From Fidelibacterota bacterium (GTDB lineage: Bacteria; Fidelibacterota; UBA8477), in contig JAIPJR010000009.1 in NCBI GenBank assembly GCA_021734045.1, forward strand, positions 1 to 44,462: a DNA stretch of 44,462 bases. Reading direction: 5' to 3'. Both the position numbers and the translations under genes were made by a program. The notes below the pieces were generated by a model. It worked only from the letters and a program-made list of their open reading frames with translations, did no database searches and was not told where the DNA came from. Below, piece by piece: positions 1,578-10,632 of this stretch (the stretch's first letter is position 1; each line of letters starts with the position of its first letter).

Positions 1578-2927
1578 ATGGCACATTTTAAAGTTAAGCG
1601 AGGGTACAACATTCCCCTGGCTGGCGAACCGGAACGTCTTGTTATTAAAGGCGCGCGTCCGAAACAAGCGGCCGTTCAACCTGCTGATTTTCGTAATTTT
1701 CGTCCGCAGGTTGAAGTGGAACCCGGTGCTGCGGTAAAGGTCGGTTCGGTACTGTTCATGGACAAACGGCATCCGGAAATCCGGTTTTTATCGCCCGTAG
1801 CAGGTACGGTTAACGAAGTCGTTCGCGGTGAGCGTCGGCGTATTATGCGGATTATTGTTGATGCTGCTGCAAGTGACGAATACGAAGAATTTCCCAAGTA
1901 TTCAGACAGCGCGATAAAAAATCTGGACCGGGAAAAAGTCCGGTCGGCTCTCTTGCAAGGCGGCTTATGGCCAACGCTTCGCCAGCGCCCCTTCTCCAAT
2001 ATCGCAGGGCTGGATGCATCCCCGAAAGCGATTTTTATTTCAGGATTGGAGACTGCACCGCTAGCAGCTGATCCTAATTTTTACATGCAGGAGCTAAAAG
2101 CCGATTTCCAATCGGGCATTTATGCGTTGCAGCACCTGACAGAGGGAAAAATCCACCTCTCCGTAGCACCTGACCGGCATGATAGTTTTGATGGTGTCGA
2201 AGGCATCGAACTTCACACCTTTTCGGGCCCACATCCGGCGGGAAATGTGAGTGTACAGGTTTACCACATCGATCGTTTACGAGCCGGGGAAATTATCTGG
2301 TATATCTCTCCCTATGATGTAGCCCGGATCGGTCAATTACTGAAAAATGGCCGCTACCCCAATGAAACCATGGTGGCATTGGCAGGATCGGGACTGGAAA
2401 AATGCCAGTATGTGAAAACCATTACCGGTGCAGCCCTGGCCGGTATCCTTCCGGAAAATTTGAATGACGATGAACTCCGGGTTTTATCCGGAACGGTTTT
2501 GTCAGGTACCAACGCATCGCTGGAGGGATTTATTGGCTTCTATGACCATACGGTGACCGTTATTCCGGAAGTACAAAAGCGTCGACTTCTGGGCTGGTTA
2601 AGCCCCGGGTTTAACCTGGCCAGTTATGGCGGTACCTTTTTCTCTTCCCTGTTCAGGAATAAAAAATTCGTTCAAAATACAGACATTAACGGTGATGAAC
2701 GGGCGTTCGTTAGCACGGGAAATTATGAAAAGGTCGTGCCCATGGACATTCTGCCGGTGCATTTAGCCAAAGCGACTCTGGTGGAAGATATTGAACTGAT
2801 GGAAAAGTTGGGTATCCTGGAAGTAGCCCCTGAAGATTTTGCGCTGTGTACTTACATCTGTCCTTCAAAAATTGAATTCGGCGAGATCATCGAACACGGC
2901 TTAACACTGATTGAGAAGGAAGGTTAA
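1578..2927 (+). CDS. nqrA: Na+-translocating NADH:quinone reductase subunit A
   Basis: NqrA is the peripheral cytoplasmic subunit of the six-subunit Na+-pumping NADH:quinone oxidoreductase and has been linked to ubiquinone binding. The 449-residue product has no membrane segment. It begins MAHFKVKRGYNIPLAGEPE, matching the usual NqrA start IKRGLDLPIAG. I chose the ATG at 1578 over the in-frame TTG at 1542 because a GGAG at 1563-1566 precedes it and because the extra 12 residues do not fit the family. It is first in a tight nqrABCDEF operon; nqrB starts 3 bases after its stop. Confidence 0.95.
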   Translation: MAHFKVKRGYNIPLAGEPERLVIKGARPKQAAVQPADFRNFRPQVEVEPGAAVKVGSVLFMDKRHPEIRFLSPVAGTVNEVVRGERRRIMRIIVDAAASDEYEEFPKYSDSAIKNLDREKVRSALLQGGLWPTLRQRPFSNIAGLDASPKAIFISGLETAPLAADPNFYMQELKADFQSGIYALQHLTEGKIHLSVAPDRHDSFDGVEGIELHTFSGPHPAGNVSVQVYHIDRLRAGEIIWYISPYDVARIGQLLKNGRYPNETMVALAGSGLEKCQYVKTITGAALAGILPENLNDDELRVLSGTVLSGTNASLEGFIGFYDHTVTVIPEVQKRRLLGWLSPGFNLASYGGTFFSSLFRNKKFVQNTDINGDERAFVSTGNYEKVVPMDILPVHLAKATLVEDIELMEKLGILEVAPEDFALCTYICPSKIEFGEIIEHGLTLIEKEG

Positions 2928-2930
2928 GCG

Positions 2931-4070
2931 ATGAGTATGGAACAATTCTTTAACCGGCTGGAGGAAGGTGTCTCAAAGAGCCCGCTGAAGTGGTTTTCGC
3001 CACTGGTTGAGGCAACCCATTCCTTCCTGTTAACACCCGGACGTGCGACCCGCAGGGGGCCGTTTGTAAGGGATAATATCGACTTGAAGCGCTATATGTT
3101 CGTGGTGGTTGTTGCACTTTTACCCGTTATTGCCATGAGCATTTACAATATCGGTCGGCAGGCAGGTATCACTGAATTTTGGCCGGCTATTTGGGAAGGC
3201 CTGCTGGTCATGGTCCCCGTGATCATTGTTTCCTACGCGGTGGGTGGATTCTGGGAATCCCTTTTCGCCAAAATCCGCGGTCACGAAATCAATGAAGGCT
3301 TACTGGTCACAGGAATTCTTTTCCCACTGACGCTACCGCCTACCATTCCCCTTTGGCAGGTTGCCATTGGTATCTCCTTTGGCGTGGTCATCGGAAAAGA
3401 GGTTTTTGGTGGAACCGGCATGAACCTGCTAAATCCAGCCCTAACCGCGCGGGCATTTTTATTTTTCACATACCCTGGCGATATGTCGGGTGACCGGGTT
3501 TGGGCCGCGGTAGATGGCTTTTCAACGGCCACACCCCTGGCAACGGTAGCCGCTTCTGATGGCAACGCAGTTGAAGCGTTACGCGCCGGTTCAATGGATT
3601 ATTCCTGGCTGAATATGTTCAACGGAAACATTCCCGGCAGTATGGGCGAAACCTCCACACTTGCGATTTTAATCGGGGCTGCGATTTTGTTGATTACAGG
3701 CATCGGGAGCTGGCGGATTATGCTGGCCACGCTGCTGGGTGGATTTGGGATGGCCAATGTCATCTATTTCCTAGCGGGACCATCAGCCACGGGTATGATG
3801 TCTCTGCCCCCTGTCTATCACCTGGTGATGGGTGGATTTATGTTTGGAACCGTGTTTATGACCACGGATCCCGTTTCAGCAAGTGGGACGAATACTGGCA
3901 AGTGGATTTATGGCATATTGATTGGTGTGATGGTCATCCTGATTCGCACATTTAACCCGGCTTACCCGGAGGGGATGATGCTGGCAATCTTGTTCGGGAA
4001 TGTATTCTCACCGCTGATTGATCACTTCGTGGTCCAGGCGAATATTAAGAGGAGACTGCGGCATGTATAG
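2931..4070 (+). CDS. nqrB: Na+-translocating NADH:quinone reductase subunit B
   Basis: NqrB is an integral membrane subunit that carries covalent FMN on a threonine and riboflavin, and it forms much of the Na+ path. The 379-residue protein has many hydrophobic helices. It carries the flavinylation motif GFSTATPLA with the expected FMN-linked threonine near residue 201, the residue type that ApbE modifies. The first ATG at 2931 follows an AAGGAAGG sequence. Its 3' end overlaps nqrC by 8 bases, which implies translational coupling. Length and motif agree with the family. Confidence 0.96.
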   Translation: MSMEQFFNRLEEGVSKSPLKWFSPLVEATHSFLLTPGRATRRGPFVRDNIDLKRYMFVVVVALLPVIAMSIYNIGRQAGITEFWPAIWEGLLVMVPVIIVSYAVGGFWESLFAKIRGHEINEGLLVTGILFPLTLPPTIPLWQVAIGISFGVVIGKEVFGGTGMNLLNPALTARAFLFFTYPGDMSGDRVWAAVDGFSTATPLATVAASDGNAVEALRAGSMDYSWLNMFNGNIPGSMGETSTLAILIGAAILLITGIGSWRIMLATLLGGFGMANVIYFLAGPSATGMMSLPPVYHLVMGGFMFGTVFMTTDPVSASGTNTGKWIYGILIGVMVILIRTFNPAYPEGMMLAILFGNVFSPLIDHFVVQANIKRRLRHV

Positions 4071-4791
4071 TAATGCTTATATCCTGCGATTCGCCGCAAT
4101 CGTTACCATTGTATGCGGTGTTCTCCTGGCCTCTGCGGCTACACTGCTGAAACCCATGCAACAGGAAAACATCCAGACCGATATCAAAAAGAACATTCTC
4201 AAAGCGGTGAGTCTGCTTGAGTCTGAAAAAGCTTACACCAAAACGGAAATTCTGGATCTCTTCGATGAGCGCATGACCAGTATTGTGGTTAATCCAGAAG
4301 GAGAGGTGCTTGAGGGATTGAAGGCTGAGGATGTGAATCCGGCGGAGGAACCAGATCATCTGCCCATCTACCTATTGAAAGACAAATCTGATGATGTCAT
4401 CGCCTACTGTATTCCCATTGAGGGAAAAGGACTATGGTCAACCATTCATGGCTATCTCGCTCTGGAGGCAGACTTAAATACCGTACGTGGTGTGACATTT
4501 TATGATCACGGCGAGACACCGGGATTGGGTGGTGAAATCTCACAGCAATGGTTTCAGGACAATTTCAGTGGTAAGAAAATCCTGGATGAGTCCGGTAATC
4601 TGGTCTCTATAACGGTTGCAAAAGGCCAGGTACGGGACGATGCCAAGGGGAAAGAACATCTGGTGGACGGCATTAGCGGCGCGACACTAACGGGAAACGG
4701 CATTAATCAATTCCTGTTCTCAGACCTGGAGCGCTATAACCCATATTTTGAAGAAATTCGTAATCAAGACCAAAATGAGGTGGTTTCATGA
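4063..4791 (+). CDS. nqrC: Na+-translocating NADH:quinone reductase subunit C
   Basis: NqrC carries the second covalent FMN and sits mostly on the periplasmic side behind one N-terminal membrane helix. In this 242-residue protein the helix is at about residues 7-28, and the flavinylation motif DGISGATLT places the FMN threonine at residue 208. The start is the ATG at 4063, inside the nqrB 3' end, with AGAGGAG about 9 bases upstream. An upstream in-frame ATG at 4018 would add a charged, unlikely leader. The stop overlaps the nqrD start as ATGA. Confidence 0.95.
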
Positions 4792-5414
4792 ACATCCTCA
4801 GTGCAAAGAATATGAAGTTCGTCAAAGACCCTTTGATGGACAACAATCCCATCTCCGTGCAAGTCTTGGGAATTTGTTCGGCATTGGCGGTGACGGTACA
4901 GATGAAGACAGCGGTGGTGATGTCATTAGCGGTAATTTTCGTCATCTCTTTCTCGAACCTCACCATCTCGTTAATCCGCAATAAAATTCCCTCTCAGATT
5001 CGAATTATCGTCGAGTTAGCGGTTATTGCTTCCCTGGTGATTTTAGTCGATCAAATCCTGAAGGCTTACCTGTTTGACATCAGTAAGCAGTTGAGCGTTT
5101 TTGTGGGGCTGATTATCACAAACTGTATCGTTTTGGGCCGGGCGGAAGCCTTCGCGCTCCAGCAGAAGCCCTTTGCCTCCTGGCTGGATGGCATTGGTAA
5201 TGGGCTGGGTTACAGTATGTTTCTGCTGGTGGTGGCATTTGGTCGCGAGCTCCTGGGCAGTGGGACATTGTTCGGTTACCACATCATTCCAGAGAGCTTT
5301 TATGCCGCCGGCTATCAGAATATGGGATTGATGGTATTGGCGCCCGGGGCATTTATCCTGCTGGGGCTCTTTATTTGGTTACAACGTACCATTACCGGTA
5401 CTGTGGACGAGTAA
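4788..5414 (+). CDS. nqrD: Na+-translocating NADH:quinone reductase subunit D
   Basis: NqrD is a membrane subunit, homologous to NqrE and RnfA/RnfE, that pairs with NqrE to hold an iron centre between them in the membrane. The 208-residue protein has about six hydrophobic segments. It contains a conserved cysteine in the stretch [18 protein letters not shown] and a second in [18 protein letters not shown], the two family positions that face NqrE. The start overlaps the nqrC stop by four bases. Confidence 0.95.
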
Positions 5415-5428
5415 GGCGGAAGCGTATT

Positions 5429-6037
5429 ATGGAACATCTAATCAGTTTATTTGTCAAGTCCGTTTTTGTGGAAAATATTCTCCTGGCGTTTTTCCTGGGG
5501 ATGTGCTCATTTCTGGCTGTCTCCAAACGGGTTGAAACGGCTATCGGACTTGGATTCGCAGTTATTTTCGTTCAGACCATCACAGTTCCCACCAACTGGG
5601 CGATCCATCATTTTCTGTTGGCACCGGGAGCGCTGGAATGGGCAGGGTTGCCGGGCGTGGATCTCAGTTTCCTGGGCTTCATTTCATACATCGCGGTAAT
5701 CGCGGCCATGGTCCAATTGGTGGAAATGATTTTGGACAAATACAGCCCGTCGCTTTACGCCGCGCTGGGCATATTTCTGCCTTTGATTGCGGTGAATTGC
5801 GCTATTCTGGGTGGTTCACTGTTCATGGTAGAACGGGAATATAACTTAAGTGAATCGGTGGTCTTCGGATTAGGGTCCGGGACAGGTTGGGCGCTGGCAA
5901 TTATCGCCATGTCCGCGATTCGGGAGAAAATCCGCTATTCCAATATTCCCATGGGATTACGCGGACTAGGTATCACCATGTTAATCACCGGGCTCATGGC
6001 TATTGCGTTCATGAGTTTTTCCGGTATTGCTCTTTAA
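5429..6037 (+). CDS. nqrE: Na+-translocating NADH:quinone reductase subunit E
   Basis: NqrE is the partner of NqrD, in inverted topology, and supplies the other cysteines for the intramembrane iron centre. The 202-residue product starts [19 protein letters not shown]. It has six predicted helices with cysteines in [13 protein letters not shown] and [12 protein letters not shown] chose the ATG at 5429 because it lies after GGCGGAAG and matches the family start. The longer in-frame start at 5375 would overlap nqrD with an arginine-rich leader. Confidence 0.95.
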
Positions 6038-6049
6038 GGGGGACGACGC

Positions 6050-7279
6050 GTGAATAGCACCGTTGGATTGATTGTCCTCAGTACAGTCGTTTTCACAGGC
6101 ACCATCCAGATTCTGGTCATCCTGCTGAACTATGCTTCATCCAAGCTCGTGAATAAAGGTAAAGTAAAAATCCTCATCAATGCTGATGAGGAAAAATCCC
6201 CGGAAGTTGAAGCTGGCGGAACGCTGCTCAACACGCTGGCGGCGCAGAAAATCTTTCTGCCCTCGGCATGCGGGGGTGGCGGTACCTGCGGCATGTGTAA
6301 ATGTCAAATTCTGGAAGGTGGCGGCGATGTGCTGCCCACGGAGAAAACCTTGTTAAACCGGGCAGAAATGAAAGATGATGTGCGGTTGTCTTGCCAGGTA
6401 AAGGTGAAAAATGACATGACGATTCACATTCCCGAGGAAATTTTCAGCATCCAGAAGTGGGAATGCGAGGTCATGAGCAATAAAAATGTGGCAACATTTA
6501 TTAAAGAGCTCATATTGAAGTTGCCGGAAGGTGAAAATTTGAACTTTCGTGCAGGCGGGTATATCCAGATTGATATTCCACCGTATGAACTCGATTACAG
6601 TGAGTTTGATATCGATGAGGAGTACCGGGAGGATTGGGACAAATACAACATGTGGAAATACCATTCCAAGCTGGATGAACCCATTTTCCGGGCTTACTCA
6701 ATGGCCAATCATCCGGCGGAAGGCAACATCGTCATGCTGAATGTGCGTATTGCCAGCCCACCGCCGGGAATGGATGTCCCGCCTGGGAAAGCCTCTTCTT
6801 ACATATTTAACCTGAAACCCGGTGACCGGGTAACCGTCAGCGGTCCCTATGGTGAATTTTTCGCCCAGGATACTGACAATGAAATGCTGTATATCGGTGG
6901 TGGTGCTGGCATGGCACCCATGCGGAGTCATATCTTTGACTTGTTCTATACGAAGAATACAAAACGCAAAGTCTCATTCTGGTACGGCGCGCGCTCCGTG
7001 CGTGAAATGTTCTATGACGACGAATTTAAAAAGCTGGCCGAAGAGCATCCGAATTTCAGCTACAATGTGGCATTGTCCGATCCCCTACCCGCAGACAACT
7101 GGAAAGGACCGGTCGGCTTCATCCACCAAGTCGTGCTGGAAAACTATCTGAATGACCACCCGGCACCAGAGGATATCGAATATTACATGTGCGGCCCCCC
7201 ACCCATGATTGCAGCAGTGAATAAAATGCTCTATAATCTGGGTGTTGATAAGGACATGATTTATTACGATGAATTTTAG
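6050..7279 (+). CDS. nqrF: Na+-translocating NADH:quinone reductase subunit F (NADH-oxidising)
   Basis: NqrF oxidises NADH and passes electrons through FAD and a 2Fe-2S cluster into the membrane subunits. The 409-residue protein has an N-terminal membrane helix (about 7-28). A plant-type ferredoxin domain follows with cluster cysteines 74, 80, 83 and 115 ([10 protein letters not shown] and LSC). The FAD domain contains RAYSMANHP, and the NADH domain contains [12 protein letters not shown] and MCGPPPM. The start is GTG at 6050 behind AAGGGGG. All key residues are present. It is the last structural nqr gene. Confidence 0.96.
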
Positions 7280-8363
7280 CCGGCAACACCTGTTTAACCG
7301 GAACGATAATCATCATCTTAAGCAGACCCGTATCCTTGCGGGTCTGTTTTGCATGTGGGTGTTGGTACTGGGAAATTGCAGTCGCAGCAGTGAACCAGCA
7401 TTACCGGAGACCTCCTTCTCAGGTTTTACAATGGGCACAACTTACCACATCCGAATCGTGGATACAGTGCTTACGGATCTCCAGGCTCGCCGGCTCCATC
7501 AGGATGTGGATAGTCTCTTGCTAACCATTAATCTTTCCATGTCCACCTATATTGATTCCAGTGAAATTTCACGCTTTAACCAATCTACTGAAACAATACC
7601 ACAGCCGGTTTCGAAGCCGCTGGCCGATGTATTAAAAACCAGCCTGGAAATTGGTCACAGCTCCGGTGGGGCACTGGATATTACGGTGCTGCCTTTGGTG
7701 AATTTCTATGGTTTTGGTCATGAAAGTGGTGCAAGGCATCTACCTACAGAACCCGAACTGAATTCGCTCAAAGCCCTTGTTGGATTGCAGCACCTCGTCG
7801 TTACGGACACCACTGTTCAGAAAAAAATCAGTCCACTCAAGCTGGATTTGGGCGCGGTTGCCAAAGGGTACGGTGTCGATGCAGTCGGTCAATTTCTTAC
7901 GGCGGTTAAGATTGAGAATTTTATGGTGGAGATTGGTGGAGAGGTGTTGGCGCGGGGTGTGAATAGCCGTGGTCAATCATGGAAAATCGGGATTGACCGG
8001 CCGCTCTTTGACCAGCAGCCAGGACGGCAATTGCAGCATGTGGTTCAGCTGGAAAACATGGCTATTGCCACCTCTGGTGATTATCGAAATTACCGTGAAA
8101 TGGATGGGAAGCGGATCTCCCACACGATTGATCCGCGTTCTGGAAAGCCGATTGAGCACCATCTGGCAGCCGTGTCAATCATTGCACCCATGTGCATGAT
8201 TGCTGATGCCAGCGCCACTGCGGTGATGGTTTTGGGTGAAGATGCCGGATTAAAATGGATAGAATCGCGTCCGAATATTGAGGGACTCATTATTGTACGG
8301 GAGGCGGATCAGACTTTCCGTGAAATACAGACCAGCGGATTTTCCCAATATATTGTGGATTAG
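7269..8363 (+). CDS. apbE: FAD:protein FMN transferase ApbE, predicted lipoprotein
   Basis: ApbE uses FAD to attach FMN to threonines of NqrB and NqrC on the periplasmic face. The 364-residue protein has a signal segment ending in lipobox LGNC with Cys37, then [22 protein letters not shown] and the Mg2+/FAD-site region [10 protein letters not shown]. The ATG at 7269 overlaps nqrF by 11 bases. No strong ribosome site precedes it, and the codons for residues 19-27 form a terminator-like hairpin. Starting at the next Met (7353) would leave too short a signal peptide, so I keep 7269. Family identity is secure; the exact start is less so. Confidence 0.92.
7323..7350 (+). terminator. Terminator-like hairpin inside the 5' end of apbE
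   Basis: CAGACCCG (7323-7330), an 8-base loop and CGGGTCTG (7339-7346) form a perfect 8-bp stem followed by TTTT. It lies 43 bases after the nqrF stop and within the signal-peptide codons of apbE. It could end or attenuate nqr transcription before apbE, keeping the enzyme below its substrates. The U-run is short, so leaky termination is more likely than full termination. Confidence 0.55.
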
Positions 8364-8404: not shown

Positions 8405-8436
8405 AAAAAAAGACCGCTCTTACAGCGGTCTTTTTT
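8405..8436. terminator. Bidirectional intrinsic terminator after apbE
   Basis: AGACCGCT (8411-8418), loop CTTAC and AGCGGTCT (8424-8431) form a stem flanked by an A-run on the left and a T-run on the right. It can therefore stop transcription from apbE on the plus strand and from the NqrM-like gene on the minus strand, whose stop codon is at 8461. Confidence 0.9.
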
Positions 8437-8460: not shown

Positions 8461-8784
8461 CTACTCCTGCTTCGGTCCCTTCAAATGATCCCAGTACCGT
8501 AAATTCTCAATTGCCCGGTTGCGGGGCTTGCCTTCGTAGGCTTCCTCAGAGATGATGTCCTGTCGATTGGGATATCCAACTTTGGCAAGAGTCGTGAAGT
8601 AATCCTGTTTTTCCACTGCTTCGTTGGGACAAAATGCGCAACTTACCTTCTCCCCGTTTGAATCCAGTTTTGCAGTAGCGGAACATTCCAGGTGAATATT
8701 ATTTTTCCCCGTGAGGACATAGGTAATGCCCATCAGTGCCAGCGCGGTGGCAAAGATGATCAGGGTTAACAATAATTCAGTCAT
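8461..8784 (-). CDS. NqrM-like small membrane protein with three cysteines
   Basis: The 107-residue product has one N-terminal membrane helix (about 2-25), then LEC (Cys34) and KVSCAFCPNE (Cys49, Cys52), followed by a hydrophilic tail. This matches the plan I know for NqrM (DUF539), a maturation factor that helps supply iron to the NqrD/NqrE site: an MT..LLT..F helix, a cysteine near position 33 and a later C.C..C cluster. It sits next to nqr/apbE but in convergent orientation. The tail is longer than in vibrio NqrM, and the last cluster cysteine is absent or displaced. The ATG at 8784 is preferred to GTG 8793 because GGAGG (8796-8800) is better spaced for it. Confidence 0.62.
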   Translation of the reverse strand: MTELLLTLIIFATALALMGITYVLTGKNNIHLECSATAKLDSNGEKVSCAFCPNEAVEKQDYFTTLAKVGYPNRQDIISEEAYEGKPRNRAIENLRYWDHLKGPKQE

Positions 8785-8835: not shown

Positions 8836-9180
8836 TCACCCTTTTACCTGAAAACCCTCCGAAACCAGATACGCCCGGACACGATCCCGGTGTTCTCCCT
8901 GAAGTTCAATTGTACCTTCCTTAACAGTTCCACCTGCGCTTACCAAATTTTTCAGTGTGCGACTCAAGGCTTTCATGTCCTGGACTCCGGAAAGTTCGTA
9001 CAACACAGTGGTGGGTTTTCCCTTGCGCTTTTCCATGCGCAATTTGGCAATTTTCATCAAACCGGTGTCCGCAGTATCCAGGTCATCACACAAACATTGA
9101 CCGGGAAGTTGACCACACTTCGGACAGGGCTCCACCAGCGCCCAGCCTGTTCCACGTGTCTGCTTTTTGGATTTTGCCAT
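8836..9180 (-). CDS. SUI1/YciH-family translation initiation factor (eIF1-like)
   Basis: YciH-type proteins resemble eukaryotic eIF1 and influence start-codon fidelity on the 30S subunit; their bacterial role is only partly known. The 114-residue product ends with the SUI1 core: KRKGKPTTVLYELSG, then VSAGGTVKEGTIELQGEHRD and a C-terminal LVSEGF. It begins with a cysteine cluster, CPKCGQLPGQCLC, that could bind zinc, as in several YciH relatives. The ATG at 9180 is close to a TATTAT box and has little Shine-Dalgarno sequence. The NqrM-like gene follows 51 bases downstream and may be cotranscribed. Confidence 0.85.
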   Translation of the reverse strand: MAKSKKQTRGTGWALVEPCPKCGQLPGQCLCDDLDTADTGLMKIAKLRMEKRKGKPTTVLYELSGVQDMKALSRTLKNLVSAGGTVKEGTIELQGEHRDRVRAYLVSEGFQVKG

Positions 9181-9226
9181 GCCCTATAATAAACTGCGTG
9201 GTTTTGAATCAAACAGTCATCCTCAG

Positions 9227-9259
9227 ATAAAATGCCGGGTCAGTTAACACCAACCCGGC
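9227..9259 (-). terminator. Predicted intrinsic terminator after the 9295-10632 gene
   Basis: On the minus strand GCCGGGT (9259-9253), a 12-base loop and ACCCGGC (9240-9234) are followed by ATTTTAT. It lies 35 bases after the stop of the P-loop gene and before the SUI1 gene. This separates the two minus-strand units. Confidence 0.65.
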
Positions 9260-9294
9260 CAGTCCGTTCACAATTTCGGGTACCACCGTGGGTT

Positions 9295-10632
9295 CTATTT
9301 CATCAGCCCCGTTTTAAAGGCATTGGAGATGATGGATTCCAGCGTGGGTTCACCGATTTCCTGCAGTTTATACATAACCCGGGTGGAGGGCTTATCAATT
9401 TTAATTACCCGGCGCAGATCAATTGGCGTCCCAATAATCACCGCGTCACAATCCGTATTGGCAATTGTGGTTTCCAGGTCCTTCATCTGCTCCGCACCAT
9501 ATCCCATCGCCGGTAGCAGATCGCCGATATCTTCGTATTTCTCAAAGGTTTCGGTGATTTTCCCTACGGTAAATGGACGCGGATCAACCAACTCTGCAGC
9601 GCCGAATTTATCCGCAGCCACCACGCCAGCGCCATAAGTCATTTCTCCATGGGTGAGTGTGGGACCGTCTTCCACGACCAGTACACGAGCATTCCGAATC
9701 ACATCCGGATCATCCACATAAATCGGTGAAGCCGCATCAATGACCACGGCTTCCGGATTGACCCAGTCAATACTATCGCGTACTTCCTGAATACCTTCCA
9801 TGTTAGCCGTATCCATCTTGTTAATGACCACCACATCGGCCATCATCAGGTTGGTTTCACCGGGATAATAGGAAATTTCATGACCCGGACGATGTGGATC
9901 CACGACGGTAATCATCATATCCGGAATATAAAACGGCATGTCATTGTTGCCGCCATCCCAGACGATAACATCCGCTTCTTTTTCAGCCTCCCGAAGAATC
10001 GCTTCGTAATCCACTCCGGCGTAAACCACCGTACCATTCATGATATGTGGTTCGTACTCCTCCATCTCTTCGATGGTACAATCATGCTTTTTCAGATCTT
10101 CCAGGGTCGCGAACCGTTGAACTTTTTGTTTTACCAAATCACCATAGGGCATGGGATGGCGAATGGCCACCACCTTTTTTCCCTGTGCCTTGAGTATGTC
10201 ACACAATCGTCGTGTGGTTTGGGATTTACCACACCCTGTCCGAACCGCGCAAACTGCAATAACCGGTTTTTCCGATTTTAACATGGTGCTCTTGGCGCCC
10301 ATCATTCTAAAGTCAGCACCGGCTGCATTCACGAGAGCTGATTTGTGCATAATGGTATCGTAGGAGACATCACTATAGGCGAATACCACCTCGTCAATAT
10401 CCATCTCGTCAATGAGTTCTTCCAGGTCATCTTCCGAATAGATCGGAATACCATCCGGATACAGTGCTCCGGCTAATTCGGCCGGATATTTACGGTCATC
10501 AATATCCGGAATCTGAGTTGCTGTGAATGCCACAATCTCATACGCAGGATTATCACGATAGTACACATTAAAATTGTGAAAATCCCGACCTGCTGCTCCC
10601 ATTATGATCACTCGGATGCGTTCGTCATTCAT
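9295..10632 (-). CDS. P-loop NTPase of the cyclic 2,3-diphosphoglycerate synthetase family
   Basis: The 445-residue protein has an N-terminal Rossmann-like part (RVIIMGAAGRDFHNF), a linker and a P-loop at AVRTGCGKSQTTRR. Further NTPase motifs follow: DGGNNDMPF, DPHRPGH and INKMD. This arrangement is that of proteins named after archaeal cyclic 2,3-diphosphoglycerate synthetase, which closes a phosphoanhydride ring using ATP. Many bacterial members are simply called GTPases and their substrate is not established. It is probably cytoplasmic, with no membrane segment. The ATG at 10632 follows AAGGAG by 7 bases. Family assignment is fair; the reaction in this organism is unknown. Confidence 0.7.
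   Translation of the reverse strand: MNDERIRVIIMGAAGRDFHNFNVYYRDNPAYEIVAFTATQIPDIDDRKYPAELAGALYPDGIPIYSEDDLEELIDEMDIDEVVFAYSDVSYDTIMHKSALVNAAGADFRMMGAKSTMLKSEKPVIAVCAVRTGCGKSQTTRRLCDILKAQGKKVVAIRHPMPYGDLVKQKVQRFATLEDLKKHDCTIEEMEEYEPHIMNGTVVYAGVDYEAILREAEKEADVIVWDGGNNDMPFYIPDMMITVVDPHRPGHEISYYPGETNLMMADVVVINKMDTANMEGIQEVRDSIDWVNPEAVVIDAASPIYVDDPDVIRNARVLVVEDGPTLTHGEMTYGAGVVAADKFGAAELVDPRPFTVGKITETFEKYEDIGDLLPAMGYGAEQMKDLETTIANTDCDAVIIGTPIDLRRVIKIDKPSTRVMYKLQEIGEPTLESIISNAFKTGLMK

Follow-up and report, generated by a model that had tools for sequence, protein, structure and literature searches.

NqrM (DUF539, PF04400) is described as the maturation factor of the Na+-NQR in Vibrio and Klebsiella (Kostyrko et al., 10.1128/JB.00757-15, as cited in PMC12174285). 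It is a small protein with one N-terminal helix, a first cysteine just behind the helix and then a cysteine pair, and in these organisms its gene is co-transcribed behind apbE. In V. harveyi, Kostyrko et al. are said to have found that replacing Cys33 of NqrM with Ser abolished maturation, whereas changes of the other cysteines merely lowered the yield.

NQR was widespread in the Ca. Neomarinimicrobiota genomes that we searched, and its presence in this phylum has been reported earlier (PMC6143742). The window analyzed here, the whole stretch of 44,462 nucleotides, carries an NQR operon from this phylum and, facing it, the gene of a small protein that we call X, with the following features:

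1581..7279, plus strand: nqrABCDEF, the Na+-NQR structural genes (NqrD and NqrE match solved NQR subunits)
7269..8363, plus strand: apbE, flavin transferase (PF02424, E = 1.7e-82)
8406..8436, both strands: bidirectional terminator-like hairpin between apbE and X (folding)
8461..8784 including the stop codon, minus strand: X, divergent NqrM-like protein of 107 amino acids (open reading frame, profile searches, orthologue alignment)
8464..8616, minus strand: C-terminal extension of X, residues 57 to 107, order-specific and conserved in 18 orthologues
8629..8640, minus strand: Cys49-x-x-Cys52 pair of X, invariant in orthologues and aligned with the Cys pair of the phylum NqrMs
8683..8685, minus strand: Cys34 of X, invariant in X orthologues and in the phylum NqrMs aligned with them
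8710..8781, minus strand: predicted N-terminal transmembrane helix of X, residues 2 to 25 (AlphaFold2), aligned with the NqrM helix
8836..9180, minus strand: SUI1/YciH-like gene upstream of X (PF01253, E = 8.4e-12), an order-wide neighbor
9295..10632, minus strand: CobW/CbiA-like nucleotide-binding protein (PF02492, E = 3.2e-5), an order-wide neighbor

We consider it probable, at roughly 84%, that X serves as NqrM in this order, as a membrane-anchored protein that hands iron to the NqrD/NqrE site and that has lost the fourth cysteine and added a tail. Like NqrM, X is small, has a single N-terminal helix followed closely by one cysteine and then by a cysteine pair, and occurs with NQR and ApbE. 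Unlike NqrM, it has CSAT in place of CGG, no fourth cysteine and a C-terminal extension of about 50 residues, and unlike the Vibrio and Klebsiella genes it lies on the strand opposite nqr. The minus-strand reading frame starts with the ATG at 8784. AlphaFold2, run with 18 sequences, modeled residues 2 to 25 as a helix with a pLDDT of about 90; the mean pLDDT was 58.7, the helix alone being confident and the rest of the model poor. The 107 residues, the single helix, Cys34 and the Cys49/Cys52 pair were all found where the first-pass annotation of this DNA had placed them. The alignment of 18 orthologues likewise bore out its description of a longer C-terminal tail and a missing last cysteine: the fourth NqrM cysteine was absent from 18/18 aligned members, the GSCGG signature of NqrM was changed to CSAT or CAAT, and the extension (consensus TTLxKxGYPxRxxIxSxEAxxGKxRNxxxExLxY) was absent from the other NqrMs of the phylum.

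The coordinates and the folding of both strands also agreed with the earlier proposal that X converges with apbE behind a shared two-way terminator. The terminator-like hairpin here has a 13-bp stem and a 5-nt loop (AAAAAAGACCGCT/AGCGGTCTTTTTT), folds on both strands and carries A and T tracts on its two sides. It was not in the output of a consensus terminator scan, probably because the T tract lies inside the stem. A consensus scan for a promoter of X gave none of note.

No curated model recognized X above its cut-off. At E ≤ 10, PF04400 matched 0 of 18 X members, and it had no match in any genome of the order, that is, in the window genus or its sister family. Elsewhere in the phylum, the same model gave matches over its cut-off in 37 genomes, against 0 of 14 control genomes, so that the phylum matches act as a positive control. 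No NCBIfam model matched the window protein, and sequence searches of Pfam, NCBIfam and PDB with X returned nothing useful. The FeoB-associated Cys-rich membrane proteins (PF12669) resemble X in having a single helix and then a cysteine cluster, and their model weakly cross-matches some NqrMs; it found just one of 18 X members, at an E value of 0.18.

A lineage-specific profile gave a different result. It was built from 32 NqrMs of the phylum, 25 of which were hit by PF04400 at E ≤ 10 (lowest E value, 1.1e-7), and the link from X to NqrM thus runs via PF04400-matching members of the phylum and not via Vibrio NqrM. With this profile, X was the top match in 21 of the 23 genomes of the order (E values of 2e-4 to 2e-8), and the next match in any of those genomes had an E value of 0.04 or worse. 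The two misses were G022, where no X was found, and G018, where the genome search missed an X that scored 27 bits when compared directly with the profile. Conversely, the first matches of an X profile outside the order were the NqrMs behind apbE in G151, G147, G150, G057 and G146 (E values of 1.4e-4 to 2.4e-3). Comparison of the two profiles gave a probability of 97.6 and an E value of 3.6e-12 over 46 columns, with Cys34 placed on the first Cys of NqrM and the CxxC on its Cys pair. In an NqrM of another family (f25, L137; GHCGGGQRITIDGEVLTCATC), the CxxC follows the first Cys at the same 14-residue spacing as in the window X (LECSATAKLDSNGEKVSCAFC). The profile search suggested by the first-pass annotation therefore failed with PF04400 but succeeded in both directions with the lineage profiles, and X is homologous to NqrM by the latter without a match to the curated model.

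The helix contributed about half or more of the score between X and NqrM. When helix and loop were each shuffled within themselves, the real score was reached in 0 of 2,000 shuffles for each of six sequences. Shuffles of the loop only scored as high as the real sequence in 81 of 2,000 cases for the window X and in 45 of 2,000 for that of its genus mate (L003), and in 0 to 6 of 2,000 for four orthologues from the sister family. Since the window X is marginal in the loop shuffles, the sequence evidence rests on the orthologues; judged by sequence, the window X alone would be a marginal case and the X family would not.

The position of the gene supports the same reading. In many families of the phylum, a small helix-plus-cysteine open reading frame lies behind nqrF/apbE on the opposite strand, facing apbE; the 32 proteins of the NqrM profile are of this kind. 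Wherever NqrM or X shared a contig with nqrA (88 pairs, 3 of them X from the window genus and 85 from outside it), the two genes were on opposite strands in 88/88 cases, with NqrM or X 5.5 to 8 kb downstream; the window X is 7.2 kb downstream of nqrA. X in the window genus therefore occupies the NqrM slot exactly, in the same convergent position behind apbE as other Neomarinimicrobiota NqrMs (L137, L110 and L041). These differ from X in that nearly all have four cysteines and end soon after the last one, and most match PF04400. A search for an nqrM-like gene convergent with apbE in related genomes, proposed in the first-pass annotation, was thus answered positively, and convergent placement is the general NqrM arrangement of the phylum and no peculiarity of X.

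NQR and NqrM or X also occur together. Among 245 genomes, 130 had both, 25 had NQR only, 10 had NqrM only and 80 had neither (Fisher P = 1.8e-30, with genomes treated as independent although they are related). Genomes with NQR were listed by hand, and several of the one-sided cases are fragmented or incomplete assemblies. Both NQR and X were present in 21 genomes of the order.

Orthologues of X were found in 3/3 genomes of the window genus and in 19/20 of the sister family, and none were found outside these two groups in a sample of 60 relatives; the sole sister-family genome in which X was not detected (G022) is 63% complete. Cys34, Cys49 and Cys52 were invariant in 18/18 aligned orthologues, in agreement with the cysteine conservation expected earlier, as were T25-G26, N28, H31, P53-N54 and several residues of the tail. 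The two close relatives obtained by the contig scan have X proteins 83 to 89% identical to that of the window, and by these relatives the window comes from a Ca. Neomarinimicrobiota MAG. Against the nearest relative, dN was about 0.06 and dS about 1.7 (dN/dS of about 0.035), and the low dN relative to dS held for the tail as well as for the front part. X is a real gene under strong purifying selection, with a conserved tail. In one genome (G003), the contigs L145, which ends just behind apbE, and L146, which ends just behind X, share an insertion sequence-like end (GACCCAGTTATTTTGACACTCCC). The apbE-X junction of this genome may therefore hold an insertion element or have one close by. The shared end might also hint that apbE and X once adjoined, but bases compared by eye beside the two ends revealed no target duplication.

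Taken together, the profile similarity, the conserved cysteines and the synteny in the phylum support the original suggestion that X is a divergent, lineage-specific NqrM. Its further suggestion of control separate from the structural genes holds in a stronger form in the sister family. There, the nqr loci covered by our reading stop after apbE and have no NqrM next to it, and X, which adjoins nqr/apbE in the window genus, is unlinked from nqr. It sits in a cluster with the CobW/CbiA-like and SUI1/YciH-like genes that is kept across the order, with dusB ahead (8836-10632 on the minus strand of the window; L158-L164). In most sister-family genomes, about 2 nt separate the stop codon of the SUI1/YciH-like gene from the ATG of X that follows, and X is therefore presumably expressed with that gene and not with nqr; in the window genus, this gap is about 50 nt.

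This arrangement, a tail that is strongly conserved and order-specific, and the loss of one cysteine and of the GG motif could also mean that X, although descended from NqrM, has ceased to serve NQR and has been recruited with its tail to a process of its neighbors, for example as a membrane metal or redox sensor. We regard this as unlikely, because nqrA was detected in all X-bearing genomes but one, no second NqrM was found in genomes of the order with PF04400 or the NqrM profile, Cys34, Cys49 and Cys52 never vary, and the NqrM slot of the phylum is retained in the window genus. About as doubtful, and slightly more so, is that the tail turns X into a bipartite protein linking iron loading of NQR to the process of the SUI1/YciH-like and CobW/CbiA-like neighbors, for instance to set the assembly of the pump according to translation or metal status. 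It is very improbable that X has no kinship with NqrM and is a small single-helix protein rich in cysteine, such as one of the FeoB-associated type, lying against apbE by chance: the silence of the curated NqrM models and the share of the similarity that falls in the helix would fit, but the reciprocal profile matches with NqrM, a slot identical to that of NqrM across the phylum and the poor FeoB_associated score argue against it.

If X does serve as NqrM here, we infer its topology, iron binding, iron delivery and tail function to be as follows. The N-terminal helix would anchor the protein in the membrane, and the loop with Cys34 and Cys49-x-x-Cys52 would bind iron transiently and pass it to the site of four cysteines that lies between NqrD and NqrE; ApbE would attach the FMNs. 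All four site cysteines are present in NqrD and NqrE of the window, as judged by comparison with solved NQR subunits, so that an iron site is available for loading. Cys34 aligns with the first Cys of the phylum NqrMs, and through these we take Cys33 of V. harveyi NqrM, described as essential, to be its counterpart; X thus keeps this cysteine and two of the remaining three, which fits a retained function. The fourth cysteine would have been lost and the conserved tail of about 50 residues gained, and the tail perhaps docks on NQR subunits or replaces the lost ligand.

What is new in X is the tail, the absence of the fourth cysteine and the decoupling from nqr in the sister family; the convergent layout is ordinary for the phylum, and the novelty is modest. 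Standard models leave the NQR of this order seemingly without an iron-loading factor, a gap that X would fill. As a naturally occurring three-cysteine NqrM with an extension, X would let one ask which cysteines and contacts load the NqrD/NqrE site, and the phylum-wide convergent layout provides a synteny rule for NqrMs that profiles miss.

Other families of the phylum showed different arrangements. In f6, the NQR operon was present (L143, L144 and L099; genomes G036, G056 and G026), and on the two contigs long enough to tell, L143 and L144, it was not adjoined by an apbE homologue. A search of five f6 genomes, including a single-contig assembly, gave no NqrM at E ≤ 0.01, and either NqrM is still more diverged there or NQR is matured differently. 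In f9 and f13, no apbE lay beside the nqr operon in the stretches read, and a small open reading frame with a helix and a cysteine cluster lay on the same strand as nqr, either after nqrF or between it and nqrE:

L086, 6923-7168, plus strand: small cysteine-cluster open reading frame
L087, 6566-6814, minus strand: the same
L088, 6626-6829, minus strand: the same
L090, 5769-6011, minus strand: the same
L136, 6572-6760, plus strand: the same

Some of these weakly resemble PF12669 FeoB_associated, and they are candidates for non-homologous substitutes of NqrM. In f14 (G202, G199, G198 and G201), the matched stretch of several NqrM-like hits contains, or ends in, a TAA or TAG codon in frame.
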